A DNA stretch of 64,000 nucleotides from Symbiodinium sp. CCMP2592. Taxonomy: Eukaryota; Sar; Dinophyceae; Suessiales; Symbiodiniaceae. The notes below the pieces were generated by a model. It had not been told where the DNA came from, made no database searches, and saw only the letters and a list, made by a program, of their open reading frames with translations. Below, in pieces: positions 7,176 to 63,481 of this stretch. Within the stretch, counting starts at the first letter, position 1, and each line of letters opens with the position of its first letter. The DNA lies in assembly GCA_905221615.1 (NCBI GenBank), contig CAJNDT010003458.1, positions 558,001 through 622,000 on the forward strand. The letters are read 5' to 3'. Position numbers and translations under genes: made by a program.

Positions 7176-7280
7176 GGACCTAGAGTAGGCCCTTTTTCCT
7201 CGTTTTTTAGGGTTCAGGTTCCCTTATAAAGCCCCCTTTAAACCAGGCGCCCTATTTATTCCTAGGTTACTCTTGGGTCT
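7176..7280 (+). mobile_element. Family I element (intron-like MITE)
   Basis: Starts GGACCTAGAGTAGGCCC after TA and ends GGTTACTCTTGGGTCT. The imperfect terminal inverted repeat is TAGGACCTAGAGTA against TAGACCCAAGAGTA. The internal CCCTTATAAAGCCCC block is shared with the other copies. Confidence 0.8.
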
Positions 7281-7308
7281 GGAATTGAAGCTGATCTAAA
7301 GCAACCCC

Positions 7309-7399
7309 GGAAGGGTCAGTATGCACTACCATTATGGAGTTAGGCCCCAAAAGACCATCCCTGCTAGATTTTTGGAGACTTAGCTCCATAGTAGCAACA
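7309..7399. mobile_element. Family R element, degenerate
   Basis: Contains CACTACCATTATGGAGTTAG and a decayed inverted partner CTCCATAGTAG, as in the better copy at 21589. The termini are eroded. Confidence 0.5.
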
Positions 7400-7639
7400 T
7401 TCCTCTTGTGGAACTAGGTACGTAGGATCTGGATTGATATTGAATGCTCCGGTTCTGAGTCATCTGCGTTCAACACCCTAAACAGTAAACTCAACCCTAA
7501 ACCCTTAACAGAAGGTTTGTCTCACGATGATACATGCACATCAAATCGTCAGTACTTGCACCCAAAAGATAGAGTTTAGGGCCCAGGAGCCTCAAACAGA
7601 GAATCTTCAAGCCTTCACAACGCTTTAACTAACACGAAA

Positions 7640-7812
7640 CCTAAAGCCTCATGGTAACCCTTCTGGAGCCCTTATAGCACATACCCCCCTAAACCCCTAA
7701 ACCCTCAATCCCTACCCCCTAAACCCTTGAATCCTTAAACCTAAATCCCAAACCCCTCTGGCACCCTGACAGCAAGTTTTACCGGCCCCACTCTTGGACC
7801 CTCAACCCCCAT
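7640..7812. repeat. Degenerate CCCTAAA telomere-like block
   Basis: Many copies of CCTAAACCC with one- or two-base changes, all in one orientation. They lead directly into the 59-bp satellite, whose units contain the opposite orientation. Confidence 0.7.
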
Positions 7813-8262
7813 GGGGTTCAAGGGATCAGGGCTTGGCTTTGGGGCTTAGCCTTTAGGGATTTAGGGCTTTAGGGGTTCAAGGGATCAGGGCTTGGCTTTG
7901 GGGCTTAGCCTTTAGGGATTTAGGGCTTTAGGGGTTCAAGGGATCAGGGCTTGGCTTTGGGGCTTAGCCTTTAGGGATTTAGGGGTTTAGGGGTTCAAGG
8001 GATCAGGGCTTGGCTTTGGGGCTTAGCCTTTAGGGATTTAGGGCTTTAGGGGTTCAAGGGATCAGGGCTTGGCTTTGGGGCTTAGCCTTTAGGGATTTAG
8101 GGCTTTAGGGGTTCAAGGGATCAGGGCTTGGCTTTGGGGCTTAGCCTTTAGGGATTTAGGGGTTTAGGGGTTCAAGGGATAAGGGCTTGGGATTGGGGCT
8201 GAGCCTTTAAGGACTCAGGGCTTTAGGGGCGTTCAGGGATTCAGGGCTCAGGGATTGGGGCT
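7813..8262. repeat. 59-bp satellite, seven copies plus a degenerate eighth
   Basis: The phrase GGGGTTCAAGGGATCAGGG recurs at 7813, 7872, 7931, 7990, 8049, 8108 and 8167, an exact 59-bp period, with a decayed copy from about 8226. Each unit contains TTTAGGG-type words, so the satellite looks like amplified telomere-like DNA. Copies differ mainly at a GGGCTTTAGG/GGGGTTTAGG position. Confidence 0.95.
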
Positions 8263-8499
8263 GCTTTCCACGGAAAGACTTGTGATTCGAGCAATTCAAG
8301 TCTGAGTGTGGGGCTCTCACTTTGCTTCTACTTGGCTCAAGGGTGCCAGTGTTTTTCGGGTTTAGGTTAGCGCATGCAATGTGTTTGCTTCATGGCTTCA
8401 GTGGGGCTTCAAAGAAGTAGCAAGTAGGGGTTTGAGGGCTTATATAGCGTTTAGGGTGAAAGATTTCGGGCTATGTCAGCCTATGTCAGCCGCCTGCAG

Positions 8500-8557
8500 G
8501 CACGGCGATGTCATGATCTTGGACGGGGAGCGGCTATTCGGTCGGCACGAGGGGATG
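8500..8557 (+). CDS. Candidate internal exon, function unknown
   Basis: The sequence CCTGCAG precedes and GTTTGTG follows, giving AG/GT borders. The phase-1 frame reads HGDVMILDGERLFGRHEGM without stops. A His-Gly-Asp...Arg-His pattern can be seen in some 2-oxoglutarate oxygenase cores, but the fragment is too short to assign. The island at 9936 on the same strand could belong to the same gene. RNA evidence would decide; this is an exon guess from splice borders and codon-like composition. Confidence 0.3.
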
Positions 8558-8616
8558 GTTTGTGGGAGCCGAAACAAACGATTACCGAAGGGGCCAGACA
8601 TGTATGGGCCTACTGC

Positions 8617-8690
8617 AAGGGCCTTCAAAAGTAGAGTAGGGTTTGGGGGTATATTACGCTATAACTACAACGAACTCCCTAAAACCCGAT
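8617..8690 (-). mobile_element. Family K half-element
   Basis: GGGTTTGGGGGTATATTACG is the reverse complement of the family K terminus seen at 42480 and 62625 (ATAATATACCCCC followed by AACCC). No convincing opposite arm was seen. Confidence 0.45.
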
Positions 8691-9991: not shown

Positions 9992-11148
9992 GTGAGTGTG
10001 CCTGGCCAAGAAACCCTAGAGCTACAAGGGTGGGACGAAGGTCGGTGAGGTAATCCCCAATCACCATGCTAGCAGCCGCAGCAGCATCTCCGTGCTCATC
10101 GTCGTGTTGCTGGTGATAGTGGCCACATGGGTCACAAACCCATATAAATACTTAACTCGACTTTGCTCATGACCGTCATCGGGCTTTTCCTTTGGATCAT
10201 ATCCTCAAGCTTCTCTGTTCCTGCTGGAAGAGGCTTTCTGGGCGTGCATTTAAAGCTCACAGGGTTGCGGGGTGGAGAGAACTCAGATTTTTGGGTGAGG
10301 AGCAGCTAGCCGATCGGGGGTTCTAGGAAAACGAGGCCAAGAAGGGTACAAGCAACGCGTTTTATCCGATCCCGAAAAGAGGGAGGCTGTTGGAACTCCA
10401 CTGAAGATCCCTAGACGAACTGTTAAGCCGAGCCTCTGTAGAGTTTCGGAGTCTGCGATTTTACCCTAAACCCTAAACCTTAAACCCTAAACGGGATTTT
10501 GCGAACTCGGACTCAGGGGCTTGAGCCTTCCATTCCTGCCGAGCCTGGGCAGTTGAGGTGAACCACCGGGCGGGCTCCGGTTATCAGAAACTTGGCTTGG
10601 CTGGTCCCGGGGTGCCTTGAGACCTTAAACCTACTTAAACCTAACCATAAGCCCCAAAACGCTGAATGCCAAAACGCTGAGCCCTAAAACCCTAAACCAT
10701 AAAGTCCAGAAGTGTGGCTTCGGGATGGGGTTGCGATGTGATGCGTGGGGCTCGTGGGAACAGAAGCTATCCATACTTCGGAGTTCGGTCTCCCACCCCT
10801 AAATTCGAGAGATGTCCCTACTGGTTCCGCCTTGAGTGCCTCAGACTCTTCATTCCGAAAAGCTTCTGTAGCCTTTAATGGGTATGTAGTGCGGCTTCCG
10901 GTCGCCGCTGTTTAGAGTGTTACTCAAACCGCTTAACCCCAAACCATAAACGACCAGGGTTTCAATTTTTCTTGTTTTGAAGTTCGTAGACCAAGAATTA
11001 GGATTTGGTTAGGGGTGTTGATGTGTCATGAACGGCATCCGAACCCCGAAGCTATTGAAGAGCCTTCATCCGCCACGCAAACCCCCGAAGTGACTACAGC
11101 GTGGTCGCGAGCAGAGCAACGGGCTTTCTAGTGTTACAAGGATCCCTT
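9992..11148. other. Gene-poor stretch with CCCTAAA-like islands
   Basis: Short near-perfect runs occur at about 10464-10492, with weaker ones at 10620-10705 and 10930-10950. No element or exon was recognised with confidence. Confidence 0.4.
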
Positions 11149-11244
11149 AGAAGCTGCCCCCACCCTGTAATAGTGACTATAAGGATTATAGTAGGGCCCT
11201 ATTGTATTCCTATTATACCACTATTACAGGGTGGGGGCCCCTTG
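11149..11244. mobile_element. Family J inverted-repeat element
   Basis: The arms GCCCCCACCCTGTAATAGTG and CACTATTACAGGGTGGGGGC are perfect inverted copies around an AT-rich core with GGGCCC at the centre. The left flank is TTAGAAG as in the other two copies. The right end is eroded (CCCCTTG). Confidence 0.9.
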
Positions 11245-12312: not shown

Positions 12313-12543
12313 CAGTCCTTTCAGGCGCGCAAAGAAGCAGGGAGTCTTTTCAATCCTTGTGGCTTCCCGGAAACTCCAGCACTCTTTAAACCTGTCCCAA
12401 AATTGTACTTACTTGGATTCCACAAAATAAACTTGCACATGTTTGCTTCCACTACCCCGCTGCAAGAAAGCAGCGTGATCAAATCCCCGGCGGACCCTAC
12501 TGAGCCCACGTTTACAGCCGGTCTGGCAGCGCCAAGCTCATGT

Positions 12544-12652
12544 GGCAGTTTCCGAAAACAGGGGACCCTTATAATTAATGTAGTACCCCAAATAGTAGGA
12601 TCCTTATTATAGGGACCCCAAAATAAGGTACCCCTAATTTTCGGAAACTCCC
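12544..12652. mobile_element. Family E inverted-repeat element, target duplication ATGT
   Basis: The ends GGCAGTTTCCGAAAA and TTTTCGGAAACTCCC are inverted repeats. ATGT flanks both sides (12540-12543 and 12653-12656). The internal ACCCCAAATAGTAGGATCC core is shared with other E copies. Confidence 0.9.
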
Positions 12653-12656
12653 ATGT

Positions 12657-14975: not shown

Positions 14976-15229
14976 TTAAACCAATCGAATCCCATACAGC
15001 AGGAGGTGATTCTTAGCTTCGCTGGTTCTCGCAGAGATTCGATGCAGAAAAGTTGCCTGCTGTTTTTCGACCTGTGTGACCCGAACACGACGTGGCCATG
15101 GCTCTGTCACATCCATGTCCTTGCTGGACTTCCGTTTCCTCCATCGGAGGTCGGTCGAACGAAGCTTTCGGCGTGGCTGCAAGCTCGCCCATGAAGGCCA
15201 TTGAAGGCCCCCTAGACCCTAAACCCACA
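14976..15229. CDS. Coding-like island, strand undecided
   Basis: Three overlapping frames are open: 15006-15194 on plus, and 14976-15182 and 15013-15237 on minus. Base composition is exon-like. An acceptor-like CTCGCAG lies at about 15028-15034 on plus. I cannot decide the strand or name a family. Confidence 0.25.
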
Positions 15230-15326
15230 GGCTCCATGTACCTTTAGAGTAGATACTTACGCCTTACAGGGGTCCCCATATAGGTACTTTAAGGCCTAAG
15301 TATCTACAACAAAGGTACATGGAGTC
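15230..15326. mobile_element. Family L inverted-repeat element
   Basis: CTCCATGTACCTTTAGAGTAG and its inverted partner (CTACAACAAAGGTACATGGAG) close the element. Inner arms AGATACTTA and TAAGTATCT extend the stem. Only one copy was seen. Confidence 0.75.
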
Positions 15327-15594
15327 CTTGGGAAACCCTAAACAGTAAGATGTCCTGGGGCCTTGGATGGTGTTTCGGAATTCAGAGGTTGGCTTCGATC
15401 TTGGCTTTGCTTACGGTGGCACGTGACTGCATAGATATTTGTTGAGATACTCGGTAGACTTTAAGCCCTAAACCCCTAACTCGTATCAGAGCCCTTGCAA
15501 GCCCACAGAAGAAGCCCGAAGAGAAAGACTTTTGGACCTCTGCATGTAAGATTGGACCTAGGACTTTGAACATGTAGTACCAGTCTGGCCATAT

Positions 15595-16600: not shown

Positions 16601-16642
16601 ACTAGACCTTAATTATAAAACGGAGCCCCGAATAAGGTAACT

Positions 16643-16744
16643 AGGACCTAGAGCCCTCATTCTTCCTTTTTGGGTTCAAGTTCCATTGTAAGCCCCTTTA
16701 AACCAAAACGGGCACCCTCTTTATTCCTAGGTTACTCTTGGGTC
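16643..16744 (+). mobile_element. Family I element ending next to an exon candidate
   Basis: It has the family core (CCCCTTTAAACCAAAACGGG) and ends GGTTACTCTTGGGTC. The start (GGACCTAGAGCCC) has lost a few bases. The TCGAG at its right edge could serve as an acceptor for the island at 16748. Confidence 0.85.
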
Positions 16745-16747
16745 GAG

Positions 16748-17468: not shown

Positions 17469-17719
17469 GTTTGGGGGATTCAGGGATCTACTATGGGGGC
17501 CTGAAAAAATGGAAGAGGGTTTTGGGGCCCATTATACTATTATGATTACACCGCCCAAAATAGTATAGGTAATTACTAAGGCCACTGTATTAGGCTTTAG
17601 GATTTTAGGTTCCCGGCTGGGGTCTGTAGAGAACCCTAAACCCCTGTACCTCCACAGACCGGTGAGAAAGAACCACTGGACCGCCCTGACCCCGAAACCC
17701 CTAAATCCATAACCCCCTA

Positions 17720-17851
17720 CTTGGAGGGTCGGGGGACTTAGTAAGTAGGTAGTAAGTAGACTTATAAGTACCCTAAAAGGGACCCTAATTGGGGTTATGG
17801 TACTTATAAGTCCCTAAAATAACCAGTTACTAAGTCCCCCGACCCTCCATG
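17720..17851. mobile_element. Family G inverted-repeat element
   Basis: CTTGGAGGGTCGGGGGACTT at the left is matched by AAGTCCCCCGACCCTCCA plus TG at the right, inside TA flanks. Secondary arms (AGACTTATAAGTACC against GGTACTTATAAGTCC) make a long hairpin. Confidence 0.9.
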
Positions 17852-17869
17852 TACCCTAAACCAGCCGTC

Positions 17870-18475: not shown

Positions 18476-18776
18476 GGCCAGCATCTTCACACTTCCCTTT
18501 TAGAGGCGACGACCCTGGACCGTAGACCATGAAGACCTAGACATACACCTTGAAGCCCTGAAGCCTAAAAACCTATGGGTAGCGATTCTCCAACTTAATG
18601 TCCCCTTGTATTTAGTGTCTTTTTTAATAAGGGTGCCGTGCTGTTACCCTAAACCCTAAACCCTGTTTTGAGGGGCCTAAGAGGGGACCCTAACTTAGAG
18701 AACTACCCAGAAAGCGGAGGCTCACAGTGGACTAAAGCAGCCCTTTCTTGTCCGAATGTTGCTGGGTCATGTTTGT

Positions 18777-18880
18777 CTAACCATTGATATTTTCAGGAGC
18801 TAAGGAGCCAAAGATGATGATAATCTCTATATTTAATTAAGGAGCTAAAGAGCCAAGGAAGCCCTACAACCAGTGGTGAG
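18777..18880. mobile_element. Family W element
   Basis: Starts CTAACCATTGATATT and ends near CAACCAGTGGTGAG. The shared interior has GGAGCTAAGGAGCCAAAGATG. Copies at 41738 and 51220 (the latter inverted) define the family. The terminal repeat is short (CTAACCA). Confidence 0.75.
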
Positions 18881-18950
18881 TTGTTTGTGCTTTTCGGATT
18901 TTCAGACTCAGACTTACCGTGAAGTGAGGGCGTCGTGGCTAGCCGGATGT

Positions 18951-19673: not shown

Positions 19674-19782
19674 CCCAGAGACTCCAATATCCCTCAATTA
19701 AGGAATATGCCTTACAGTATAGTAGGATCCCTTATATGATTTAGGGTATATTCCTTATTTAAGGCATATTGGAGTCTCCGGG
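19674..19782. mobile_element. Family A inverted-repeat element
   Basis: CCCAGAGACTCCAATATCCC and ATATTGGAGTCTCCGGG are terminal arms. Inner arms carry AATTAAGGAATAT and ATATTCCTTATTTAA. TT lies on both sides. Confidence 0.9.
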
Positions 19783-20483: not shown

Positions 20484-20624
20484 GTAAGGAATGCTTTCTG
20501 ACATTGGCACCCGATGCAAATTATATGAAAAACACTTTCTTAAGAGAACAGTTTCAACGCCTCGGCGGACCTCTTCTCTCAGAGACATCGGGACCTCCAC
20601 AAAGGCTTGTCATGCAGTTTAACT

Positions 20625-20716
20625 ACCCTAAGGCCCCAAAGTAGTTCCTTTTTGGGGTTCGTATATAGAATCCTATAAGGTAATCCCCAAAAAGGAACTA
20701 CTTTGGGGCCTTTGGG
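20625..20716. mobile_element. Family B inverted-repeat element, target TA
   Basis: CCCTAAGGCCCCAAAGTAGT and ACTACTTTGGGGCCTTTGGG are terminal arms, with TA on both sides. The stem continues through TCCTTTTTGGGG and CCCCAAAAAGGA, leaving a core of about 30 bases. Confidence 0.95.
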
Positions 20717-20939
20717 TAGGCTCTAGACATTGAAGGTCTGGTGATGTTTAGGCTCGTCAAAGGAGATTCGGGTTCGGTGTTGTCGTTCTTTTTGCTCTGT
20801 TGGTCCGGATTGCCCCTGTGATATGTGACGGGCAGTTGTTGAGATCGTACCAGGACCCTCCGAATCCAAAAAGCAGCTTCTCAACCGGACTTGAAGCCCC
20901 TTTTAGCTTTTGATTCTATGCTCTATGATCAGAACCCAG

Positions 20940-21588: not shown

Positions 21589-21698
21589 CCCAGAGGGTCC
21601 ATATACACTACTATTATGGAATTAGGTCCCCAAAAACATGGCGGCGATGGTCTTTCAGGGCCTAATTCCACAATAGTAGTGTATATGGACCCTCTGGG
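21589..21698. mobile_element. Family R inverted-repeat element, target TAA
   Basis: CCCAGAGGGTCCATATACAC and its inverted partner ending GGACCCTCTGGG are nearly perfect. TAA precedes (21586-21588) and follows (21699-21701). Confidence 0.95.
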
Positions 21699-21740: not shown

Positions 21741-21947
21741 GTGGCGGTCATCAAAATTATGGTCCCTTTTTGGGGACCTAATACTACAGTCTCCTTCGGA
21801 ATTATCTTTATTTTTGTTCGTGTAAAACCCCAGAGAATAAAAACAATATTATTTTGATGATGCTTCTAAAGGCGGTATAGAATATAGTGTGGCACCTAGT
21901 ATTTAGGGTACCCCCAAAAAGGGACCATAATTTTGACAACCACCCCG
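21741..21947. mobile_element. Family F element, long version, target ACGT
   Basis: GTGGCGGTCATCAAAATTAT pairs with ATAATTTTGACAACCACC. ACGT lies on both sides (21737-21740 and 21948-21951). At 207 bp it is the longest F copy. Its interior is AT-rich and non-coding. Confidence 0.85.
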
Positions 21948-22633: not shown

Positions 22634-22760
22634 TCAAAGGGTAAAAGGAGGAACCCTTAATAAGGCCTAGGTATAGAACCTTCATGTAGCTATTATATAC
22701 CCATTATATGGTCCATTATAGGGTAGGGGTCCCCATTAAGGGTTCCTTTTTTGCCCTTCG
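22634..22760. mobile_element. Single-copy inverted-repeat element
   Basis: TCAAAGGGTAAAAGGAGGAA pairs with GGTTCCTTTTTTGCCCTTCGA. The inner GAACCCTTAATAAGG pairs with CCATTAAGGGTTC. Confidence 0.7.
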
Positions 22761-22914
22761 AGGGCCAGGGAGTTCAAGATATCGGCCGCTTGGGGCGAGA
22801 AAGCCTTGTGCTCTACCTATAGTCTTCGTTAAAGTTCCCTTTTCGGATTACTTTTATGGGATCCTAAATATGAAGTTTGGTAATCAACAAAAGGAACTCC
22901 ACTGGCGACTATAT

Positions 22915-22986
22915 GGGAGTTTCCGAAAATAGGATCCTTATTACAAGGACCCCAAAATAAGGTACCCCTAATTTTCGGAAATTCCC
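22915..22986. mobile_element. Family E element, short internal deletion, target ATAT
   Basis: GGGAGTTTCCGAAAATAGG and CTAATTTTCGGAAATTCCC are the ends, only 72 bp apart. ATAT flanks both sides. Confidence 0.9.
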
Positions 22987-23119
22987 ATATGTTGAGTGCG
23001 GCATAGAGGTTTGAGGTAGACCGGAACCATCCCCGGCCTGTAGGAGCTTCCAGCACCGCCGCCACAAGAACTCGCTTGGCCGATGGCTTCCCTGGCCTGG
23101 CTTTGACATGGGGCTGTTT

Positions 23120-24930: not shown

Positions 24931-24934
24931 CTAC

Positions 24935-25046
24935 TACTATTTGCTTAAGAACCCCAAAAAAGTAAAAAAAATATTCCTTATGGGGGTAATATAGGGATTA
25001 TTATTTTTTATTTTTTGGTGGTTTCTTAAGCAAATAGTAGACTACT
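24935..25046. mobile_element. Family T inverted-repeat element
   Basis: CTACTATTTGCTTAAGAA pairs with TTCTTAAGCAAATAGTAG around an A/T-rich core with AAAAAGTAAAAAAAAT and TTTTTTATTTTTT. Single copy. Confidence 0.85.
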
Positions 25047-25454: not shown

Positions 25455-25586
25455 AACCCCAGAACTCCGAAGAAAGAGGCCTGGGCCTGGCTCCTCAGCC
25501 GGACGCAGCAGCATCCCGAGTTCCGCGCGCCCGCGGCCCAGCCGCGCAGAGGACGTTGCCGAACTCGGATTAAGGTTTCAGGTCTA

Positions 25587-25676
25587 CCCAAAGGCCCCAA
25601 AGAAGTTCCTTTTTGGGGTTCGTATATAGAATTTTAGAAGGTAATCCCAAAAAGGAACTACTTTGGGGCCTATGGG
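25587..25676. mobile_element. Family B inverted-repeat element, target TA
   Basis: CCCAAAGGCCCCAAAGAAGT and ACTACTTTGGGGCCTATGGG are the ends, between TA dinucleotides. The interior is almost identical to 20625. Confidence 0.95.
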
Positions 25677-25679
25677 TAA

Positions 25680-29122: not shown

Positions 29123-29155
29123 GCCTTTACAAGCTGTACGGTCGGACGACTACCC
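29123..29155 (+). repeat. Left copy of a 33-bp direct repeat flanking an element
   Basis: GCCTTTACAAGCTGTACGGT followed by a variable base and GGACGACTACCC recurs at 29370-29402 with one mismatch, on either side of the family A element. Confidence 0.9.
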
Positions 29156-29369
29156 CGAGACTCCAATATCCCTTAATGAAGAAATAGACCTTAAATTGTA
29201 GTACGATCCTTAGTATGATTTAAGGGCTCCAGGGGTGAACCTGGCCCCTGCGTTTTAGCACCTTATGCATACCATGGCACATGGACTAGACGGTTCATGT
29301 TTCAGATAGAAAGCTAGGTGTAACCGATTTAAGGTATATTCTTTAATTCAGTGATATTGGAGCCTCTGG
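29156..29369. mobile_element. Family A element split by a nested insertion
   Basis: The left arm GAGACTCCAATATCCCTTAA and right arm GATATTGGAGCCTCTGGG are 214 bp apart because about 101 bp of foreign sequence (29225-29325) sits in the core. The core octamer GATTTAAG is duplicated at 29217-29224 and 29326-29333, as expected for a later insertion with an 8-bp target duplication. Confidence 0.85.
29225..29325. mobile_element. Nested insertion with an 8-bp target duplication
   Basis: Present inside the family A core and absent from other A copies. Its ends (GGCTCC and GTAACC) show only a weak inverted repeat (GG...CC). An 8-bp duplication is typical of hAT-type or some other DNA transposons; assignment is open. 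Confidence 0.65.
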
Positions 29370-29402
29370 GCCTTTACAAGCTGTACGGTAGGACGACTAC
29401 CC
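29370..29402 (+). repeat. Right copy of the 33-bp direct repeat
   Basis: Same sequence as 29123-29155 with a single A/C difference. Other family A copies lack such long flanking duplications. Confidence 0.9.
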
Positions 29403-29615
29403 TACCACACTCTGCTTAGCCCCGAACCCGACAGAAACGTGCTACAAATCCTAAACCCCAGCCGTAAACCCTAAAACCCCAAGGCACCTCACTCTACGAT
29501 CCTAAACCCTAAAACCCACTCTACACTCAGAAAACTTACCGGAGAATTCTAAAATCCCCAGCTCTGGATCCAGGCCTCCCATCTTGTCTGGCACCAAGTG
29601 GGCCGAGGCACATGT

Positions 29616-29716
29616 GGGTAGTTGTCAAAATTAGGGTCCTGTTTTGGGCACCCTAAATATTAGGTGCCGTACTATATTAGGGACCCAAAAAGAGGGCCTA
29701 ATTTTGACAACCACCC
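29616..29716. mobile_element. Family F inverted-repeat element, target ATGT
   Basis: GGGTAGTTGTCAAAATTAGG pairs with CCTAATTTTGACAACCACCC. ATGT flanks both sides. Confidence 0.95.
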
Positions 29717-29880
29717 ATGTGTTACTGTAAGCTCCAGGGCTTAAGGTTTAAGGGCCTAGAGTTTAGGGTGTAATTTAGGGTTTGGAGTTTCAGGTGTAAT
29801 TTCAGGGCTTGGCTTTAGGGTTGAGACTTGGGACCGGGCAAGTTGGAACATCGTTGTCCTCGTACTCTCTCAATACGAAA

Positions 29881-31387: not shown

Positions 31388-31450
31388 GTTCGTTCTTCGT
31401 CGTTGGGCGGAGCCTGTTCCCAGTCTAAGGCCCCCCCTATACCCTTATAG

Positions 31451-39425: not shown

Positions 39426-39490
39426 GCGTCTGTTGCTCTGCCGCGCGATTGTTTATCTTAAAACCCTGAACCCGAAATCCTAAGCCTAAA

Positions 39491-40378: not shown

Positions 40379-40486
40379 CCCAGAGACTTCAATATCCCTT
40401 AATTAAGGAATACACCTTAAATCATACCAGGGATCCTACTGTAATTTAGGGTATATTTCTAAGTAAGGGATATTGGAGTCTCTGGG
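40379..40486. mobile_element. Family A inverted-repeat element
   Basis: CCCAGAGACTTCAATATCCC and GGGATATTGGAGTCTCTGGG are the ends. The flanks GAT and ATC extend the palindrome, and AT could be a 2-bp duplication. Confidence 0.95.
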
Positions 40487-40649
40487 ATCTCCCTCTTCCT
40501 CCTTCTCCTCGTCCTCTTATCCCGAAAACACCGAACGCCCCAAAGCTTTTAGCCGCTATTTTACACCATCAATCCAAAAAGCCGCAGCCGTATCAACCCT
40601 AAGCTCCAGACCATGCAGACATCCTGAGACTGAAATGTTCAGAACACTT

Positions 40650-40754
40650 GGGAGTTTCCGAAAACCAGCGGTACATTATTTTGGGGGTCTTTATATTCAC
40701 AGGATCTTACTATTTAGGGTACTATATTAGGGTCCCCCATTTTCGGAAACTCAC
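40650..40754. mobile_element. Family E inverted-repeat element, target ACTT
   Basis: GGGAGTTTCCGAAAACCAG and CCATTTTCGGAAACTCAC are the ends. ACTT flanks both sides (40646-40649 and 40755-40758). Confidence 0.9.
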
Positions 40755-41057
40755 ACTTGCCTTAAATGCCAGACCCTCAGCGTTACAACTTCAAAGACCT
40801 TGCCCGAGGCCATAACTTACCCTAAATCTCTACCCGTTCACTCCTAGAACCTCTTGAGCAACTCCTGCTCGAAACCCTTTCAGAGCCCTGAGAGTAGGGT
40901 ATAGGTTTCTGGTTTGTGTATAGTCTGTATGCTAAACCCCAAACTTTAAACCCTCAGCCTGAACCCTGTTGTATAACCCTTTACCCTAAACTCACAACCT
41001 GAACCCTCTAGTACCCTTAACCCTAAACCCCCAACCTACACCCTGTAGTATATACTA

Positions 41058-41166
41058 GGACCTACAGTAGGCCCTTATTCCCTTTTCTAGGGTTTAGGTT
41101 CCCTTATAAACCCACTTTAAACCAAAAAGGGCACCCTTTTTATTCCAAGGTTACTCTAAGGTCTAG
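41058..41166 (+). mobile_element. Family I element upstream of an exon candidate
   Basis: GGACCTACAGTAGGCCC to GGTTACTCTAAGGTCTAG. An acceptor-like CCCAG follows 34 bases downstream at 41196-41200. Confidence 0.9.
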
Positions 41167-43219: not shown

Positions 43220-43657
43220 TCTTCTCAAACCGAAGCCTCAGCCCCAAACGACCAAGACGCGCCCAATCTTTCGCCAAATAAGCCCTTGACCTGAGTTCGA
43301 CAGGCCATTGAGCGAAACCTTGTATCCTTAAAGCTTTCAGCCTTCAATCCGAACCAGGACCCTAAGCCTCACACGCCCAAAGCCGTGTATGATGGAGGGG
43401 TTTTTAATTTAGAAGGCCCCGTGAACCCTAGCCCTAAACTCTTATGCCAAGCCCATTCAGTGGACAGGTCCGACACATCCCCGCAAGCCTGGGGCTCAGA
43501 GTTAGGTTGGGGGGCTTTTCGGTAGGGGTCTTGTCTGGGATCCTCACACCCTCTTCGATAGAGGTTCGGGAATCTTCAAAGGGTTGATAAGGATGGTGTG
43601 TTTAGGGTTTTGGGGTTTGCGGTTTAGTTTTCTTCGGGTTTGGTGGTTTAGGGTTTA

Positions 43658-43747
43658 CCTGTAGCCGAAAAGACCTACTTTTTTAAGGAACTATATATAG
43701 AAACCATAACAAGGAGCCCTAAAAAGGTAGGTCTTTCCGGCTACAGG
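43658..43747. mobile_element. Family O inverted-repeat element, target TA
   Basis: CCTGTAGCCGAAAAGACCTA pairs with TAGGTCTTTCCGGCTACAGG. TA flanks both sides. Confidence 0.95.
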
Positions 43748-43834
43748 TAGAGTTTAGGGCTTCAGAGTTTAGGGTTTTGGGTTCAGTCCCGGAGCGCCCT
43801 TTCGGACCGGCTAAAAAACCGGCTGCACATCTTG

Positions 43835-43943
43835 CCCAGAGACTCCAATATGCCTTAATTAAGGAATATACCTTAAATTATAGTAGGATCCCTAATATGA
43901 TTTAAGGTATATTCCTTAATTAAGGGATATTGGAGTCTCTGGG
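43835..43943. mobile_element. Family A inverted-repeat element, best copy
   Basis: CCCAGAGACTCCAATATGCC and GGGATATTGGAGTCTCTGGG are the ends. The stem continues almost perfectly through TTAATTAAGGAATATACCTT, leaving a core of about 25 bases. TG lies on both sides. Confidence 0.98.
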
Positions 43944-44554: not shown

Positions 44555-44652
44555 GTTGGGGAAAGGCGGCCGTGGAGAGACTTGTGGAGGCGATCCCTGG
44601 CGTCAGTTCAGACGTGGCGGCCCGAGGGCTAGCTTCTTTGGGGCTCTTTTAA
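44555..44652 (+). CDS. Candidate terminal exon with stop
   Basis: It is preceded by TTGTCCCAG. The frame reads WGKAAVERLVEAIPGVSSDV and then AARGLASLGLF, ending at TAA two bases before a family D element. This is one of the most protein-like islands in the window (two amphipathic helices around a PG turn). No family assigned; a UBA- or helix-turn-helix-like fold would be speculation. Confidence 0.4.
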
Positions 44653-44653
44653 A

Positions 44654-44753
44654 GGGAACTCCAGAAAGTTGGAATATGGATTAATGGTAGGCTCCCCTAT
44701 AATTGACCTTAAAGGGGTTACGATACTGATATTCCAACTTTCTGGCTTCTACT
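44654..44753. mobile_element. Family D inverted-repeat element (reverse orientation)
   Basis: GGAACTCCAGAAAGTTGGAA and TTCCAACTTTCTGGCTTCTA are the ends. The core is the reverse complement of 31451. Confidence 0.95.
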
Positions 44754-44789
44754 GTAAGGGCTTGGGATCATCTAAGGGTTTGGGGTTCC

Positions 44790-47940: not shown

Positions 47941-48203
47941 TGGATTCTGGCTACACAGGCTTTCGGCATACGACAGCTAGCAAATCGTCCTACATGTATT
48001 GCCATACCATGATAAAAAAAGAAGACACCCCACTGCCCGAATGTAGCTCCCAAGGCCCCTGTATGAAGGCTTTTGATTTCACGGGTTGAGGATGGTGCTG
48101 AGTGTCTAGGGTATTGGGGAACCTTCGTTAATCCAGGGCTAGCGATTCAAGAGTTCGGGTTTTAGGGTTTAGGGTGGTGAGGGTTTTATGGTTTAGTGGT
48201 TTA

Positions 48204-48335
48204 CTTGGAGGGTCGGGGGACTCAGTAACTGGTTATTTTAGGGACTTTTAAGTACCATAACCCCACTTAGGGTCCCTTTTAGGGAACTTAAAAGTCTACT
48301 TACTACCCACTTACTAAGTCCCCCGACCCTCCAAG
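48204..48335. mobile_element. Family G inverted-repeat element, target TA
   Basis: CTTGGAGGGTCGGGGGACTC and AGTCCCCCGACCCTCCAAG are the ends. The core is in reverse orientation compared with 17720. TA flanks. Confidence 0.95.
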
Positions 48336-48370
48336 TAAGGTTAGGGGACCAATAGCAGCAAACTGTGCAG

Positions 48371-48446: not shown

Positions 48447-49022
48447 GTGAAATTTGTCGTGCTTGTGGTTGAGAAGGTGTAGGTTTAAGTTCTGTAATGT
48501 GCAGTGCTTGCGGTTTTATGTCACTGCATCGAAGCTTGTGCGTTCACTCCCCAAAGCCCGACCCCGCAGAGTTCATACTATGACGAAGCCATCGGGTTGA
48601 ACTTGTTATGTGGACCCAGGATATGTGTATCTATGTGTGTATGTATATATGATGTATATGTAATTATGTTTATGTATATGCATGCATATGTTCATATACA
48701 TAGAGAGAGAAGCAGAAGGAGGTTGTTTCAGGGTTGATGAGGGTTGCGTTCCAGTGCCGGGGCTTGTAGGTCTACATGTTTTTTGCATGTTTGGTGGCTT
48801 GAGGGTTGAATGGCTAAGTCAAGTCTGGCTGTGCCTGAGTCTGCCTGAGACGGCATGTCTTACCCTCCACCTCTTAGCTGTTTAGAGAGGCTTATACGGT
48901 TTTTTTCAAAAGCGTGTTGAAGAGAGGTACCTTCACCGACAGTGACTACGATCCCTTTACCGTCTTCATAGAAGTATACCATGACATCCAAGGATTTTTC
49001 GAATCGTTGAAGCCCCCTACAT
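48447..49022. other. No recognised gene; ATGTATAT-type microsatellite
   Basis: TATGTGTGTATGTATATATG simple sequence lies at about 48620-48705 and is followed by unassigned sequence with short frames. Confidence 0.4.
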
Positions 49023-49125
49023 GGGCGTTTCCGAGAATAGGGGACCCTAATACGGTACCCTAAATGGTAGGAGCCTTAATTACAAGGACTACCAACTAAG
49101 GTACCCCTAATTTTCGGAAACTCCC
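49023..49125. mobile_element. Family E inverted-repeat element, target ACAT/ATAT
   Basis: GGGCGTTTCCGAGAATAGG and CTAATTTTCGGAAACTCCC are the ends. ACAT at 49019 and ATAT at 49126 differ by one base. Confidence 0.9.
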
Positions 49126-49363
49126 ATATTGCCAGGCTTCTTACAAAGGGGCTCGGGTACCGGAGGTTGGCGTTTAAGGTTCAGGGTTTGCGGAACCCGA
49201 AAAAGCCTAAGATCCATAAAAGCCCTAGAACTAACTCTACAACCCTAGTATCCTACTCCCCTACATTGGGAAACTCTGAGCCCCCATTTCGGTTATTAAG
49301 ATTGCTATTGTTTCTCATAAGTTACCTAAACCCTAAACCGCTCATAAGGGCCCTGAGCTGCAG

Positions 49364-51328: not shown

Positions 51329-51430
51329 CCCTAGGGGTCCATGTAATCATGTAGTACATACATTGGCCTTAGTGTAGTCCCTATTTAGGTACATTGGGGG
51401 TATGCTATATGAGTACATGGACCCTTAGGG
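51329..51430. mobile_element. Family M inverted-repeat element
   Basis: CCCTAGGGGTCCATGTAATC and GAGTACATGGACCCTTAGGG are the ends. The core ACATTGGCCTTAGTGTAGTC recurs at about 60268, in a copy lacking its left end. Confidence 0.8.
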
Positions 51431-53190: not shown

Positions 53191-53402
53191 CCCAAAGGGT
53201 CCTACGGTTGATGATATAAATCCTGCATGACCCATAATAAGGAATATACCATAATTCCCATAGTTTAGGGTCCTTAAGGTAATGCAGGTTTTATATCATC
53301 AACCGTATGTACTGTTATGGGAGATACTTGCCTAAGTCATAATAGCAGTTCCTAACATGGAAACCCTACATTCTACTATATCGGTACATAGGACCCTATG
53401 AG
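53191..53402. mobile_element. Family C element interrupted in its left arm by family H
   Basis: CCCAAAGGGTCCTA (53191-53204) continues after the insertion as TATGTACTGTTATGGGAGAT (53306 on), restoring the C arm. The right arm TACATAGGACCCTATG has a mutated end. Confidence 0.9.
53205..53305. mobile_element. Family H inverted-repeat element nested in family C, target TA
   Basis: CGGTTGATGATATAAATCCTG and CAGGTTTTATATCATCAACCG are the ends. TA is duplicated on both sides, and removal restores a normal C arm. Only copy in the window. Confidence 0.95.
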
Positions 53403-53699
53403 AATTTCAAGGTGTTCGCATGTTGCAGGGTTTTAGGGCTTTCTTATGTTGGCTTCGTGGTTTAGCTTAGGGCTTTCCAATGTTCGCTTAGGGATTTAAG
53501 CAGCGTAAAGTGTTTTCTTGTGTTACTTTCGGGCTTCAGCGCTGTCTTGCGGGTGCCCAAATTGAAATATATCCCCAAAGACTGAGATACTTGTGACGGA
53601 AGCCAGTAACACCCGTTGACAAGAAACCCCTAAACGGGACCCTCAAAGAAAAGCCGCAGGCCGAGGTGCTGGGCACAGAATTTACCACTCTCATCTTAG

Positions 53700-54579: not shown

Positions 54580-54659
54580 TCTTGGGTACCTTTATAAGGA
54601 ACCTAGGACTACAAAAAGGGATTACGGGTACTACTGGGCATCCTGGATTCAGGCCCTTA

Positions 54660-54904
54660 CTTAGAGGGTCGAGGGGACTTAGTAACTGGTTATTTTAGGG
54701 ACTTCTCAGTACCATAACCCCAAGTAGGGCCCCTTTGAGGGTACGTATAAGTCTACTTACTAACCCAAAGGGTCCTATGTTCCGATATAGTAGAATGTAG
54801 GGTTTCCATATGAGGAAATACTATTATGACTTAGGGAAGTATCCCCCATAACAGTACATAGGACCCTTTGGGTAACTACTTACTAAGTCCCCCGGCCCTC
54901 CAAG
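54660..54904. mobile_element. Family G element split by a family C insertion
   Basis: CTTAGAGGGTCGAGGGGACT at the left and AAGTCCCCCGGCCCTCCAAG at the right. Compared with 48204 the sequence is interrupted after CTACTTACTAA, and TAA is repeated when G resumes. Confidence 0.95.
54764..54872. mobile_element. Family C element nested in family G, target TAA
   Basis: CCCAAAGGGTCCTATGTTCC and GTACATAGGACCCTTTGGG are the ends. TAA on both sides (54761-54763 and 54873-54875). Confidence 0.98.
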
Positions 54905-54964
54905 CATGGGGCTTGGAGAAGATCCAGGCTTGGAGGGTCCGGGTTTAGGGGTTTAAAAGAGTTA

Positions 54965-55073
54965 CCCAGAGACTCCAATACCCCTTAATTAAGGAATATT
55001 CTTTAAATCATATTAGGGATCCTACTCTAAGTTCAGGTATATTCCTTGATTAAGGGATATTGGAGTCTTTGAG
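54965..55073. mobile_element. Family A inverted-repeat element
   Basis: CCCAGAGACTCCAATACCCC and GGGATATTGGAGTCTTTGAG are the ends. TA on both sides. Confidence 0.95.
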
Positions 55074-56776: not shown

Positions 56777-56886
56777 TGTCCGAGACTCCATTATCCCTTG
56801 ATTACGGAATATTCCTTAAATCATATTAGGGATCCTACTATTAATTAAGGAATATTCCTTCATTAAGGGATATTGGAGTCTCTGGG
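56777..56886. mobile_element. Family A inverted-repeat element
   Basis: GAGACTCCATTATCCCTTGA and GGGATATTGGAGTCTCTGGG are the ends. The left terminus (GTCCGAGAC) is eroded. Confidence 0.85.
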
Positions 56887-57098: not shown

Positions 57099-57103
57099 CC
57101 ATA

Positions 57104-57209
57104 GGATCTAGAGTAAGACCTTATTCCCTTTTTGTAGAGTTCAGGTTCCCTTATAAGCCCCTTTAAAGCAAGAAGGGTACCATTTTTTTCTAGGTCACTC
57201 TTGGGTCTA
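57104..57209 (+). mobile_element. Family I element
   Basis: GGATCTAGAGTAAGACC to GGTCACTCTTGGGTCTAG. The downstream sequence TATAGTAGAAGTTCATACCC is also found after the copy at 60118, so the flank was duplicated with it. Confidence 0.9.
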
Positions 57210-57299
57210 GTATAGTAGAAGTTCATACCCCCAGAATGATAAGGTATACCATTTGAAATGGCAGGCTTTCGGCTTTTATTTGCTAAGTTGTGCAGCCTT

Positions 57300-58120
57300 T
57301 AAAAGGTACAGCATGTAGGAGGCTTGTTGGGGTGCAGAATTGGGGCTGACAGCGCACGCATTCGAGAATTGCGGTTCGTGCTGAGGGCTTTGAGGACTTT
57401 CGTCTTTAGAGCGTAGGGTTTAGGGCCAGTGAAGGGATTGAACGATGGTGGTTTCCTTCGTGGTCAGGGTTCTCTTGAGGTTTTGACCTTCCTGGCCTGG
57501 GTTCAGGGTTTAGGTGCTTTTTCACTGTTTCGAGGATCCACTCTACAAGGCTCTGGAACCTCTCTCGCAAACCCTTCAACCTTAAAGAGTCCGAAACGTT
57601 CGCCACCCAAAATCTGAAGCCTGAAGCGCTTGAAACTATGAATGCCAAATCTTGATCCCGACATCCTGAACCCTGCATCCTAAAGCCGAACCTAGACAGT
57701 TTAGGGTTTAGTACACCTTTTGAAAACTCAGCAACATAGAAACGTCATCAAGCCGAAGAGAAATGTCCACCCCTCAATCCTTCTGTCCCCCAAGCTAGGA
57801 AATCCCAAAACCCAAACCCTTGTGGGAAGGCTTGCAAAGTTCGGCAACAGCTCCGACAAGCGGGTGGCTTTCTGCAGACGGGGTTGTTTCAGTGTGTGTG
57901 TGTGTGTTCTCAATGGGTTTTGCATTTGTTTGTAGCGTAGCGAGAGGATTTTCAAGGGTCCGGCAAGGGTCTTGCATTGATTTAAGCTCTTCGTTGGGGG
58001 GCTCTTACAACTAGTGTTTGGGGTGTATGGTTGAGGGCTTGAGGGGGGTTTCCTACATTGGAGCCGCTTGTCCAGAGGTCCTTGTAATAAGGAGACTACA
58101 CCAACTTTACTGAAACCTTT
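57300..58120. other. No assigned gene; scattered words and a GT run
   Basis: Short frames are open at 57406-57678 minus and 57429-57617 plus. GTGTGTGTGTGT lies at about 57893-57906. No exon could be argued. Confidence 0.35.
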
Positions 58121-58121
58121 T

Positions 58122-58225
58122 GGACCTAGAGTAGGCCCTTATTCCGGGTTTTTTGGGGTTCAGGTTCCCTTATAAGCCCCTTTAAACCAAAAAGGGTGGT
58201 ATTCCTCGGATACTGTTGGGTCTAG
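58122..58225 (+). mobile_element. Family I element
   Basis: GGACCTAGAGTAGGCCC to CTGTTGGGTCTAG. An acceptor-like GCTCACAG lies 35 bases downstream. Confidence 0.9.
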
Positions 58226-58334: not shown

Positions 58335-58498
58335 GTGTTTTAGTTTGGGTTTTTTGTGATGTTCCGAACCGGAGCCTTTTGGGGTTGAGGAGCTTAGGGT
58401 TCAGGGGATTAGGGTTTAGGGGTTTAGGGCTTAGAGTTTCGACCCTAACAGCCTTCAAAGCCCTAGGCCCTAAGCTCCTGAAACTTTCTCAGAGGCTA

Positions 58499-58599
58499 GG
58501 ACCTAGAGTAGGCCTTGATCCCCTTGTTTGTTCCCTGGTAAGCTCCTTTACACCTTACAAAGGGCACCTTTGTTATTACTAGGTTACTCTTGGGTCCAG
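58499..58599 (+). mobile_element. Family I element just upstream of an exon candidate
   Basis: GGACCTAGAGTAGGCCTTG to GGTTACTCTTGGGTCCAG. Its end lies about 5 bases before the acceptor CCCAG used by the following island. Confidence 0.9.
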
Positions 58600-59668: not shown

Positions 59669-59777
59669 CCCAAAGGGTCCTATGTACGGTTATGGGAGAT
59701 ACTTCCCTAAGTCATAATGGTAATTCCTAATATGGAAACCCTACATTCTACTATATCGGTACATAGGACCCTTTGGG
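59669..59777. mobile_element. Family C inverted-repeat element, target CTT
   Basis: CCCAAAGGGTCCTATGTACG and GTACATAGGACCCTTTGGG are the ends. CTT on both sides. The core is in the opposite orientation to 32034. Confidence 0.98.
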
Positions 59778-59945: not shown

Positions 59946-60117
59946 TATGCACATATATTCATGTTTCCCAAAACCTTATTCTTTTTAAGTTGAAGTCAAG
60001 GCAACGTTGGGACCTCTACGACAGCACCTTGCTTTAAGGGTCGCAGTCTCTTGCGGGCCACAGTAGTCGGAGCCTGTGCCCCCTTCTCCTGAAGGGGCTG
60101 GCTTCCTTCATTTCCTA

Positions 60118-60218
60118 GGGCCTACAGTAAGCCCTTATTCCCTTTTTGTAGGGTTCAGGTTCCCTTGTAAGCGCCTTTAAACCAAAAAGCGCACCCTTTT
60201 TATTCCTAGGTTTGGATC
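60118..60218 (+). mobile_element. Family I element
   Basis: GGGCCTACAGTAAGCCC to CCTAGGTTTGGATCTAG. The right end has lost the TACTC part. Confidence 0.85.
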
Positions 60219-60261
60219 TAGTAGAAGTTCATACCCCCAGAATGATAAGGTATACCCTCTG

Positions 60262-60343
60262 AAATAGTATATACGTTGGCCTTAAAGTACTTCCTATATA
60301 GGTACATTGGGCCCAAAGTATATGCTATATGGGTACATGCACC
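60262..60343. mobile_element. Family M element, left end missing
   Basis: ACGTTGGCCTTAAAGTACTT and TATGCTATATGGGTACATG match 51329. Confidence 0.65.
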
Positions 60344-60350
60344 TTCACAG

Positions 60351-60450
60351 TAGAAGCCCAAAAGTTGGAAACCCCGTAGCCTCAATCCGCAATGTATAGG
60401 AATCCCAGCACTATTTTGCCTTAATCCGGTTTCCAACTTTATGGCTTCTA
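60351..60450. mobile_element. Family D inverted-repeat element
   Basis: TAGAAGCCCAAAAGTTGGAA and TTCCAACTTTATGGCTTCTA are the ends, with compensating differences from other D copies in the outer stem. Confidence 0.9.
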
Positions 60451-60617
60451 AACGAAACCCTATAGATCCCTTTATAAAGGAACCCTAAAGGTCCCTTAAA
60501 GGAACCCTAAAGATCCCAAAATTGTCTTCTCTTGGGTCTAAACTCCGAATCCCGGGTCCCAGCTCCGAGAGCTGAGCGGGTAAGCGACAGCGACCCAAGG
60601 TCCTCTAGGATCCTTCA

Positions 60618-60731: not shown

Positions 60732-60734
60732 TGG

Positions 60735-61077: not shown

Positions 61078-61179
61078 CCCAGAGACTCCAATATCCGTTG
61101 ATTGTACGGCAAATTACAGTCGGATCCTTACTATGATTTAAGGTGCATTCCTTAGTTAAGGGATATTGGAGTTTCTGGG
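61078..61179. mobile_element. Family A inverted-repeat element
   Basis: CCCAGAGACTCCAATATCCG and GGGATATTGGAGTTTCTGGG are the ends. The left inner arm is diverged (TTGATTGTACGG). Confidence 0.9.
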
Positions 61180-61217
61180 CAGCCTCTCAATCTTTGGGTT
61201 TTCTTACATTCGTACTA

Positions 61218-61308
61218 CCGACAGGCCCCAAAGAGTTCCTTTTTGGGGATTACCTTATAGGATTCTATATACGAACCCCCCAAAAGGAACTACTTTGGGG
61301 CCTTAGGG
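61218..61308. mobile_element. Family B inverted-repeat element, target TA
   Basis: GGCCCCAAAGAGTTCCTTTTT pairs with AAAAGGAACTACTTTGGGGCC. TA flanks. Confidence 0.9.
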
Positions 61309-61538
61309 TAGCCTGACTTGTTAATGCCTGCATAATTTACTAATTACCACTATTATTCCTTAGGGTTACTTTTTATGAATATACTGAAAAGGAGCCCAAA
61401 ACCTTATTCCAATGCTTACGGACCTACCGTAAACCACTATCCCCCCAAGTCAGCAAGCCTAAACCCTAAACCCCAAACCCTACACTCTAAACCCTACACC
61501 CTGAACCCTAAACCGCTCGGTCCCCTGGAGGAGCCCAG

Positions 61539-61775: not shown

Positions 61776-61884
61776 CCCAGAGAGCCCAGTACCCCTTAAG
61801 TAGAAAATGTACCTTAAACTATAAGGGGATTCATATTGTGGTTTAAGCTATATTCCCTAATTAAGGGGTATTGGGCTCTCTGGG
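61776..61884. mobile_element. Family A subtype with paired changes in both arms
   Basis: CCCAGAGAGCCCAGTACCCC and GGGGTATTGGGCTCTCTGGG are perfect partners although each differs from the family norm (GAGACTCCAATATCCC) at four positions. Confidence 0.98.
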
Positions 61885-62111
61885 TTCGACTTGGTTTTAG
61901 GTTCAATGCACTGTTGTCACCCCAGGCCCTAAACCCTAAATCCCAATCCCATTTGAGGATTCCTCTCAAACCACGACATCCCTACTGCCTCGAACCCCGA
62001 AGCACACAAAGTGAAGCCTGAATCCCCTGGTCCTAAACCCTAGACCCTTTAACCCCTATACCCCAAATCCCCAAGCATTTGAGGATACTCCTCAATGGAG
62101 TGCAACTGCAG

Positions 62112-62150
62112 ATTCCCAGCGAGGATTCCGAGGAGGACAGGAGGTCGCGG
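62112..62150 (+). CDS. Candidate micro-exon
   Basis: After CAACTGCAG the phase-0 frame reads IPSEDSEEDRRSR, followed by GTTCCT. It is acidic then basic. No family assigned. Confidence 0.25.
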
Positions 62151-62470
62151 GTTCCTGGGTACTGGAGTATCATACCTTTAATTCTTTGTTTGGGGGTTAA
62201 GGGTTATTCAGGCATTAAGGTTATCTAGATTTGAGGTTTAGGCTTTAGGCTTATTTCGGGGTCTAGGTTTACTTGAAAGAACCACTATGAAAGAAAAAGT
62301 GAACACTTTCTTTGCCCCTGGTCATGCCTGGTCCACTTGAAAGCACCCTAAACCCAAAACCCTAAACTGCGGTCATCCCTGGTCCACTTCCAAGCCCAGG
62401 TTCGCTCGCGATTCCATGGCCCAGCTTTAGAGTGGTTGCTCTGAGCAGTTCAGAGGTGAGGTTGAATAGA

Positions 62471-62659
62471 GGGGCCTAACTATTTACCAGTACTGTTTTG
62501 GGGGGGTTCGTTCTTATGATGTTAGCTTAGAAGGGGCCCCCACCCCGTAATAGTGACTATAAGGATTATATTAGGGCCCTATTATATTCCTATTACAGGG
62601 TGGGGGCCCCTTCTAAATCATAGCATAATATACCCCCAAACCCTATTCTAATTAGTAGT
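62471..62659. mobile_element. Family K element interrupted by family J
   Basis: The left GGGGCCTAACTATTTACCAG and right ATATACCCCCAAACCCTATT with CTAATTAGTAG are K arms. J occupies 62530-62613. The sequence either side of J aligns to the uninterrupted K at 42449. Confidence 0.75.
62530..62613. mobile_element. Family J inverted-repeat element nested in family K, target TA
   Basis: GAAGGGGCCCCCACCCCGTA and TACAGGGTGGGGGCCCCTTC are the ends. Shorter core than other J copies. Confidence 0.95.
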
Positions 62660-62689
62660 TCAGAGTTGGGTTCTATGTTGTTTGGTGGT

Positions 62690-62915
62690 TCAGGGGATTA
62701 CGGTTCCTTTCAGGGTTCCTTTAAGGGATCTATAGGGTTTAGGGTGTAGGAGTATAGGGTTTAGGGTTTAGGGGTCTAGGAGTCAAGGTTTAGTTGCTTT
62801 TCTGGTTTGGGAGTTTTAGGGGTTTGGAGGTTTGCCTGATGAATTCGTGATACTATTCCTGCTGTCGGTGGGTCGGTCGACGGGCAGGGTTTAGGGTTCA
62901 AGGTTTAGGGTTTTG
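62690..62915 (+). repeat. Degenerate TTTAGGG words
   Basis: Dense at 62725-62790 and 62885-62915. Confidence 0.65.
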
Positions 62916-63101
62916 GGTTTGCATGCATCCCTGCGTGCTTGGACTCATGTATGTCCACACACACACACACAAACACACCCCAGCTTCTTCCGCGCCGTCC
63001 CCTCCCTCCTCAATCAGTATCCAACAAAATAGCAGAGCCGACCAAGAATCTACGTAGCGCGACTCACTCCGAACCCTAAACCAAAATCCCCTGAAGCCCT
63101 A

Positions 63102-63197
63102 CCTGCGGATCCCAAGTCTACTCTTTTCAGGGTTCTACCCTCTACATAAGGGGTCATAACCCGCTAGTTTTCAGGGTTTGGGGATACGCGATACAGG
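63102..63197. mobile_element. Family Q element, target TA
   Basis: CCTGCGGATCCCAAGTCTAC and GGGTTTGGGGATACGCG with ATACAGG are the ends. ACCCTCTACATAAGGGGTCAT is shared with 34764. TA flanks. Confidence 0.8.
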
Positions 63198-63392
63198 TAA
63201 AGCTCATAGTTTTGAGCTTGAACCCCTAAACCTTAAACTCTATCTTAAACCCCAAACTCTTAAACCCTAGCCCAGGAGCCGGGAACATTTGCGAATGAAC
63301 TAGTGGGCCAACCCACATCGCAGCTGCTGCAGCAGGCAAGCCTGTGCAAGCTAAGACCGTCTATGCCTCTCGTCTGCGTATTTGGGGTTTAC

Positions 63393-63481
63393 GTTAGCCC
63401 TGAATAACCTACCCTTTCAAGGTCCTCTATTATGATTTCCTTATAAAAGTCCTTAAAAATGTAGGTTCTTCAGGGTTAAGG
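63393..63481. mobile_element. Family P inverted-repeat element
   Basis: GTTAGCCCTGAATAACCTAC pairs with GTAGGTTCTTCAGGGTTAAG. Confidence 0.85.

Follow-up and report, generated by a model that had tools for sequence, protein, structure and literature searches.

Repeated elements in the window

The stretch of DNA considered here, referred to as the window, comprises 64,000 nucleotides from the dinoflagellate Symbiodinium sp. CCMP2592 (G000:C3458:558001-622000, in a searched assembly of 1.098 Gb) and is crowded with short repeated elements, many of them palindromic. A seed-and-extend scan for inverted repeats (score of at least 14) detected 59 of them, compared with a mean of 0.05 and a maximum of 1 in 20 dinucleotide shuffles, and 40 of the 59 have non-simple arms, i.e. 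they remain after simple, telomere-like or AT-only arms are dropped. Repeat families were defined by self-comparison of the window together with small loci and 20 fetched 10-kb stretches of the same genome, the latter taken from contigs in the match list of family F6 and totalling 189,860 bp. This clustering yielded 43 clusters. With a polyubiquitin repeat and the tandem duplication found at 1660-2105 set aside, the window holds 80 copies from 27 of these clusters (some with only two copies in the sample), covering 8,254 bp; the count includes the two halves of one element (3469-3589) and several partial copies. Three of the 80 copies are found at 3283-3588 and the remaining 77 within 7100-63600. 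The median repeat length is 106 bp (interquartile range 86-117, 284 repeat nodes in the whole sample), and the coding capacity of the elements was judged from length alone. The dense accumulation of short elements is thus confirmed as real.

Family alignments end abruptly, and terminal inverted repeats are present in the named F families. Called copy by copy (inverted-repeat score of at least 12), 46 of the 80 window copies are palindromic. No inverted repeat was found at this score among the window copies of fam10, fam16, fam20, fam23, fam24 and fam32 to fam34, and none of the ten window copies of fam3, one of the two largest families, scores as one, its ends (CTAG(G/A)ACC) being only short and imperfect. 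A first-pass annotation of the window had described roughly seventy copies in about twenty families, figures that prove sound, and had considered most copies to retain nearly perfect arms, which the scores above contradict. The elements neither collapse into one family nor represent single-copy hairpins: exact two-arm patterns, applied genome-wide with reversed controls, match 2,555 places for F0 and 15,444 for F1, with 0 matches in either control, although two of the 50 listed F1 matches (C1:1032620 and C1:1033348) look unrelated by eye. These two families were counted by pattern; for F6, 40 of 799 candidate places were scored. As a separate genome query, the dinoflagellate spliced-leader 21-mer gave 429 exact matches and 0 in its reversed control, on which basis the genome is assigned to a dinoflagellate. 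The principal copies in the window, none with an assigned strand, are as follows (TSD, target site duplication).

F0, 19674..19782, ends CCCAGAGACTCC, TSD TT
F0, 38334..38438, TSD AA
F0, 40379..40486, TSD AT
F0, 43835..43943, near-perfect 53-bp arms (50/53), TSD TG; DNA fold -49.2 kcal/mol, z -18.9
F0, 54965..55073, TSD TA
F0, 56778..56886, decayed TSD (AT/TT)
F0, 61078..61179, without TSD (TC/CA)
F0, 61776..61884, TSD TT
F0, interrupted by a later insertion, 29153..29370
100-bp insertion within F0, 29226..29325, 9-bp TSD GATTTAAGG
fam3, 7173..7282, ends CTAG(G/A)ACC, without TSD
fam3, 16641..16747
fam3, 35218..35328, TSD CTGA, not a hairpin
fam3, 41055..41166, TSD TATA
fam3, 57101..57210
fam3, 58119..58225, TSD ACCT
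fam3, 58496..58599, without TSD
fam3, 60116..60265 (repeat extent)
F2, 17718..17853, ends TACTTGGAGG, no clear TSD
F2, 48202..48337, no clear TSD
F2, interrupted by F11, 54658..54911
F11 inside F2, 54764..54872, ends CCCAAAGGGTCC, TSD TAA
F11, 32034..32142, TSD CTA
F11, 59669..59777, TSD CTT
F11, 53306..53415 (repeat extent)
F1, 31448..31550, TSD TA
F1, 44652..44754, TSD TA
F1, 60348..60453, decayed
F4, 12543..12653, ends TGGGAGTTTCCG, TSD TG
F4, 22914..22987, TSD TA
F4, 32495..32599, TSD TG
F4, 40649..40755, TSD CT
F4, 49022..49126, decayed TSD (CA/TA)
F3, 53205..53305, ends CGGTTGATGATATAAATCC, TSD TA
F9, 20624..20718, ends TACCCAAAGGCCCC, no clear TSD
F9, 25585..25678, flanks AGGTC/AGGTC
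F9, 37439..37532
F9, 61216..61310
F7, 15224..15332, TSD AAA
F7, 51329..51430, decayed TSD (AAT/AAC)
F7-like, own cluster fam31, 21589..21698, TSD TAA
F5, interrupted by a 99-bp insertion (21784-21882) with TA duplication, 21741..21946
F5, 29615..29717, TSD TG
F8, 43656..43749, ends TACCTGTAGCCG, no clear TSD
F8, 63390..63483
F6, 11147..11243, damaged right end, without TSD
F6, 33078..33178, 8-bp TSD TGCCTATC
F6, 62527..62616, decayed 8-bp TSD (6/8)
F14, 3469..3589, TSD TTGT
F14, 39485..39575, TSD TAAG/TAAA
F13, 24934..25040, TSD ACTA
F10, 22634..22761, without TSD in this copy
fam20, 18773..18885, 41738-41835 and 51212-51320, no clear TSD

Target site duplications and nested insertions

Duplications were scored as exact matches between the two flanks of a copy, at many offsets and lengths, and their excess was taken relative to permuted flanks; a second, alignment-based method was convincing for fam0, fam3 and fam7 and, owing to end gaps, unclear for the ten other families in its output. 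TSDs of 2 bp occur in 13 of 22 F0 copies (1.95 expected; 12 of 23 by alignment, 2.45 expected), in 10 of 12 F3 copies (3.36 expected) and in 8 of 15 F4 copies (1.5 expected), where a 4-bp reading one base further inward is also found (6 of 15, 0.71 expected). Since the F0 duplications include TG, TA, AT, CA, TT and CT, insertion of this family is not TA-specific. For F1, at least 12 of 24 rows show TA next to either end of the element (by eye), and two of the four window rows are exact. Duplications of 3 bp accompany F11 (5 of 8 copies, 0.14 expected) and F7 (5 of 7, 0 expected; 7 of 11 by alignment, 0.30 expected), and duplications of 4 bp accompany F13 (3 of 4, 0 expected), F14 (2 of 3, 0 expected) and, by alignment, fam3 (9 of 19, 0.11 expected). 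The longest in these scans are the 5-bp TSD of F10 (2 of 4 copies) and the 8-bp TSD of F6 (3 of 11 exact), both with 0 expected. Together with the nested insertion described below, about seven classes were seen (2 bp of any sequence, 2 bp TA, 3, 4, 5, 8 and 9 bp), the 5-bp class from two F10 copies and the 9-bp class from one insertion. The proposal of the first-pass annotation that each family has its own termini and duplication length therefore holds wherever the flank scans resolve one; the lengths it named (TA, 3 bp and 4 bp) were recovered, and the set is wider, extending to 5 bp (F10), 8 bp (F6) and the single 9-bp case.

Three elements in the window are themselves split by later insertions. 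The 100-bp insertion within F0 is bounded by a duplication whose length, among 22 spanning query copies, is read as 9 bp in 11, 8 bp in eight, 7 bp in one and 6 bp in two. When the F0 flanks are joined and compared with the intact copy at 43835-43943, five differences are seen in 46 bases, none of them within 7 bases of the junction (by eye). Similarly, an F11 element lies between TAA and TAA inside an F2 copy, the joined flanks of which differ from the intact F2 at 17718-17853 at three of 48 bases, one of these at the junction (by eye); the TAA was read directly beside the element ends, the automatic overlap there being 0, 2 or 4. The third case is the 99-bp insertion in F5, with a 2-bp duplication (TA) in four of six queries. 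Neither the 100-bp nor the 99-bp insertion has a second copy in the sample. Joined flanks that match intact copies are the signature of cut-and-paste insertion.

Mobility, transposases and the origin of the palindromes

Because of their abrupt termini, family-specific TSDs and empty sites at nested insertions, the elements are very probably miniature inverted-repeat transposable elements (MITEs), short non-autonomous DNA transposons of the dinoflagellate that are moved in trans. Each family would be a relic of about 100 bp that keeps little beyond the ends needed by a transposase; such an enzyme, encoded elsewhere, would excise the element and paste it at a staggered target cut, the repair of which would leave a duplication whose length is particular to the family. 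Given that TSD lengths are distinct and ends unrelated, we infer that several types of transposase have acted in trans. The elements resemble described MITEs in being short and multicopy, with nested insertions that have empty sites, and differ from them in that about seven TSD classes meet in one 64-kb window and a genome sample, with no autonomous partners found. An improbable alternative is that every family was mobilised by one transposase whose staggered cut is flexible. Here, a loose end motif, (TA)CYYRRAGGNYC, is common to F0, F7, F9, F11, F15 and F2 (by eye), and those of them with a resolved TSD (F0, F7 and F11) have 2 or 3 bp; F1 (TA), F6 (8 bp) and F13, F14 and fam3 (4 bp), however, combine unrelated ends with TSD lengths of their own.

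F1 resembles Tc1/mariner-type MITEs in its TA duplication and its ends, CAGTAGAAG.., a CAGT- start being common in Tc1/mariner, and differs in that no F1 ends occur around the six DDE_3 places that were fetched out of ten genome matches. The 8-bp duplication of F6 is reminiscent of hAT elements.

Several observations weigh against the MITE reading. Clear TSDs are lacking for F2, F8 (one copy in the flank scan), F9, F12 and F15, as well as for most of the smallest clusters, and many copies of other families have no exact TSD (e.g. 9 of 22 for F0). F10, F13 and F14, each represented by few copies, are weaker cases, given the large number of offsets and lengths at which TSDs were sought. In addition, a genome search with four Pfam families returned no transposase gene with matching family ends, so that the autonomous elements with shared termini suggested earlier did not turn up in convincing form. 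In this search, PF13358 (DDE_3) gave ten matches and PF12762 (IS1595-type) 23, PF13359 (DDE_4) gave none, and PF02992 (Transposase_21) also gave none but is uninformative, its controls being silent too. Twelve of the 33 matching places were retrieved together with flanks of about 1.5 kb in each direction, a span beyond which ends would be missed, and 11 of the 12 have no bracketing pair of family ends. At the remaining place (L042), the gene lies between an F2-like end at 37, which has four mismatches, and an F2 MITE whose right end is at 2680, an arrangement that is read as chance.

Among the transposase-like genes, the places L033 to L038 (G000 contigs C3890, C558, C2846 and C4595) carry Tc1-like DDE_3 genes (PF13358), with PF01498 in addition in L036, where the open frame that follows on that strand has weak similarity to DnaJ and to a geminivirus-type Rep domain, neither of them reaching Pfam cut-offs. 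On C2846, three DDE_3 matches are spaced about 3.57 kb apart. Of the IS1595-type transposase-like genes (PF12762; L039 to L044), several lie in open frames of more than 300 amino acids, and two are confirmed by Pfam.

Two further explanations concern the palindromes themselves. Five of six folded copies are more stable than all shuffles, as would be expected if the hairpins were retained as RNA structures, such as small-RNA precursors or other structured RNAs. The sixth, however, the fam3 copy at 35218-35328, folds no better than its shuffles (z 0.37), no hairpin is detected in the large family fam3, and there is no Rfam match at gathering thresholds. F0 alone was followed in a larger set, in which the arms of 38 of the 50 listed copies, selected by exact outer arms, were compared. 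The arm consensus is identical at 43 of 46 positions, and the inner arms have decayed by about 11% per arm; their changes are unpaired, with six shared double changes against 9.5 in permutations, and arm identity within a copy is below the permuted mean. The arms of F0 thus decay independently after insertion, and, as they do not covary, neither an RNA hairpin nor arm correction is seen. Retention as RNA is accordingly the least credible of the explanations considered.

Hardly more credible is the making or maintenance of the palindromes by replication template switching, i.e. arm-to-arm correction without transposition. Such homogenisation appeared promising on small sets: relative to random pairs, the two arms of one copy agree better in their outer part (1-20) in eight of ten families (all but F4 and F6), and in their inner part (21-45) in three of ten (F2, F7 and F11). 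The searches behind the F7 and F11 tests were loose, however, and took in related families, and the inner arms show no excess in the other seven families, with the reverse in four (F1, F3, F4 and F6). This candidate was dropped after the larger F0 set, and the TSDs and empty sites moreover require insertion. Within the MITE reading, the F0 palindrome is best read as a property of the founder, neither corrected nor selected as RNA. As a separate observation, the F1 copies at C1:1441230 and C1:1443188 join the left half of one subfamily to the right half of another (by eye), which suggests recombination or template exchange between subfamilies.

Copy number, placement and neighbouring features

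In the 20 stretches, 174 elements make up 9.5% of the 189,860 bp. Extrapolation of the copy number from these stretches was rejected, since the 12 F1 and two F0 pattern matches that they contain give a density about 4.5 times that of the patterns in the genome as a whole. If the genome-wide counts are instead corrected for the fraction of sampled copies that fit the pattern, F0 and F1 come to roughly 20,000 copies each and all elements to the order of 200,000-300,000, by hand arithmetic from few hits. Pattern scans of viral contigs for the elements gave 0 matches. A scan of genome contigs for a 17-mer gave 19 bacterial or archaeal records and was set aside, as this is about the number expected by chance in 257 billion bases (own arithmetic).

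Across the 20 stretches, element density tracks the density of the telomere-like heptamer TTTAGGG (Spearman 0.81) and is higher at low GC content (Spearman -0.50). This placement bears on a quite plausible, if not quite probable, explanation, namely that the families are introners, the genic copies of which are spliced out as new introns, with the intergenic copies as the unselected remainder. Introners of Symbiodinium microadriaticum have terminal inverted repeats and 4-bp TSDs (PMC9860276), the length also found here for fam3, F13 and F14. Introners of Amoebophrya carry inverted and direct repeats (PMC7789003), Polarella has 15 introner families with at least 100 introns each (as summarised in PMC11453091), and introner elements occur in about 5% of the genes of E. 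voratum (PMC11114475). In their inverted ends and direct repeats of several lengths, the introners of Symbiodinium, Polarella and Amoebophrya resemble the present elements. In contrast, the elements here concentrate in TTTAGGG-dense, low-GC stretches, and none of ten gaps between adjacent kinesin matches resembles any family (E 0.01). With introner elements in about 5% of genes, as published, this gap sample is too small; furthermore, at most six of the ten gaps are likely introns, because in those of C28, C240, C545 and C5328 the open frame is of equal length on the two sides, and these four may be read-through inserts. Full-text literature searches returned no title or opening of an abstract on dinoflagellate MITEs or inverted repeats that describes these families. 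As MITE-like introners of dinoflagellates have already been published, the window adds a new and very rich example to a class of elements that is known.

If the elements are MITEs, what surprises is how many insertion chemistries occur together, along with a similar element size of about 105 bp. A speculative and rather unlikely account of this similarity is that unrelated lineages, with staggers of 2, 3, 4, 5, 8 and 9 bp, converged on about 105 bp and on the TTTAGGG-rich compartment, so that a feature of the host, and not the transposase, would set size and place. One example of such a feature might be the nucleosome-poor chromatin of dinoflagellates. Preferred insertion into TTTAGGG itself was considered and rejected, as 57 of 502 element flanks compared with 492 of 5,080 locus-matched controls show no clear preference. 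The shared size across unrelated families is a testable question. Dinoflagellates have been proposed to gain introns from exceptionally diverse MITE-like introners, and a window with about 27 families and about seven chemistries offers a set for dating bursts, matching transposases and asking which families make introns.

The heptamers are interspersed in both orientations (TTTAGGG/CCCTAAA), with 380 exact occurrences in the window and from 0 to 97 per 10-kb stretch of the genome, as if there were two compartments (L010-L012, L014, L020, L022, L027 and L028). Other features of the window are listed below. The first lies in its low-G+C initial 2 kb and is probably nuclear mitochondrial DNA, and the ubiquitin array, with both strands open for about 1.2 kb, may be a gene or a decaying array.

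757-1182, minus strand, fragment of cytochrome oxidase subunit 1 (1qle_A, E 3.6e-8; no Pfam match)
1609-2242, 316-bp tandem duplication with inverted repeats, beyond the cytochrome oxidase fragment
26978-28407, minus strand, diverged ubiquitin repeat array (PF00240)
50209-50678, degenerate TACA microsatellite of about 119 copies

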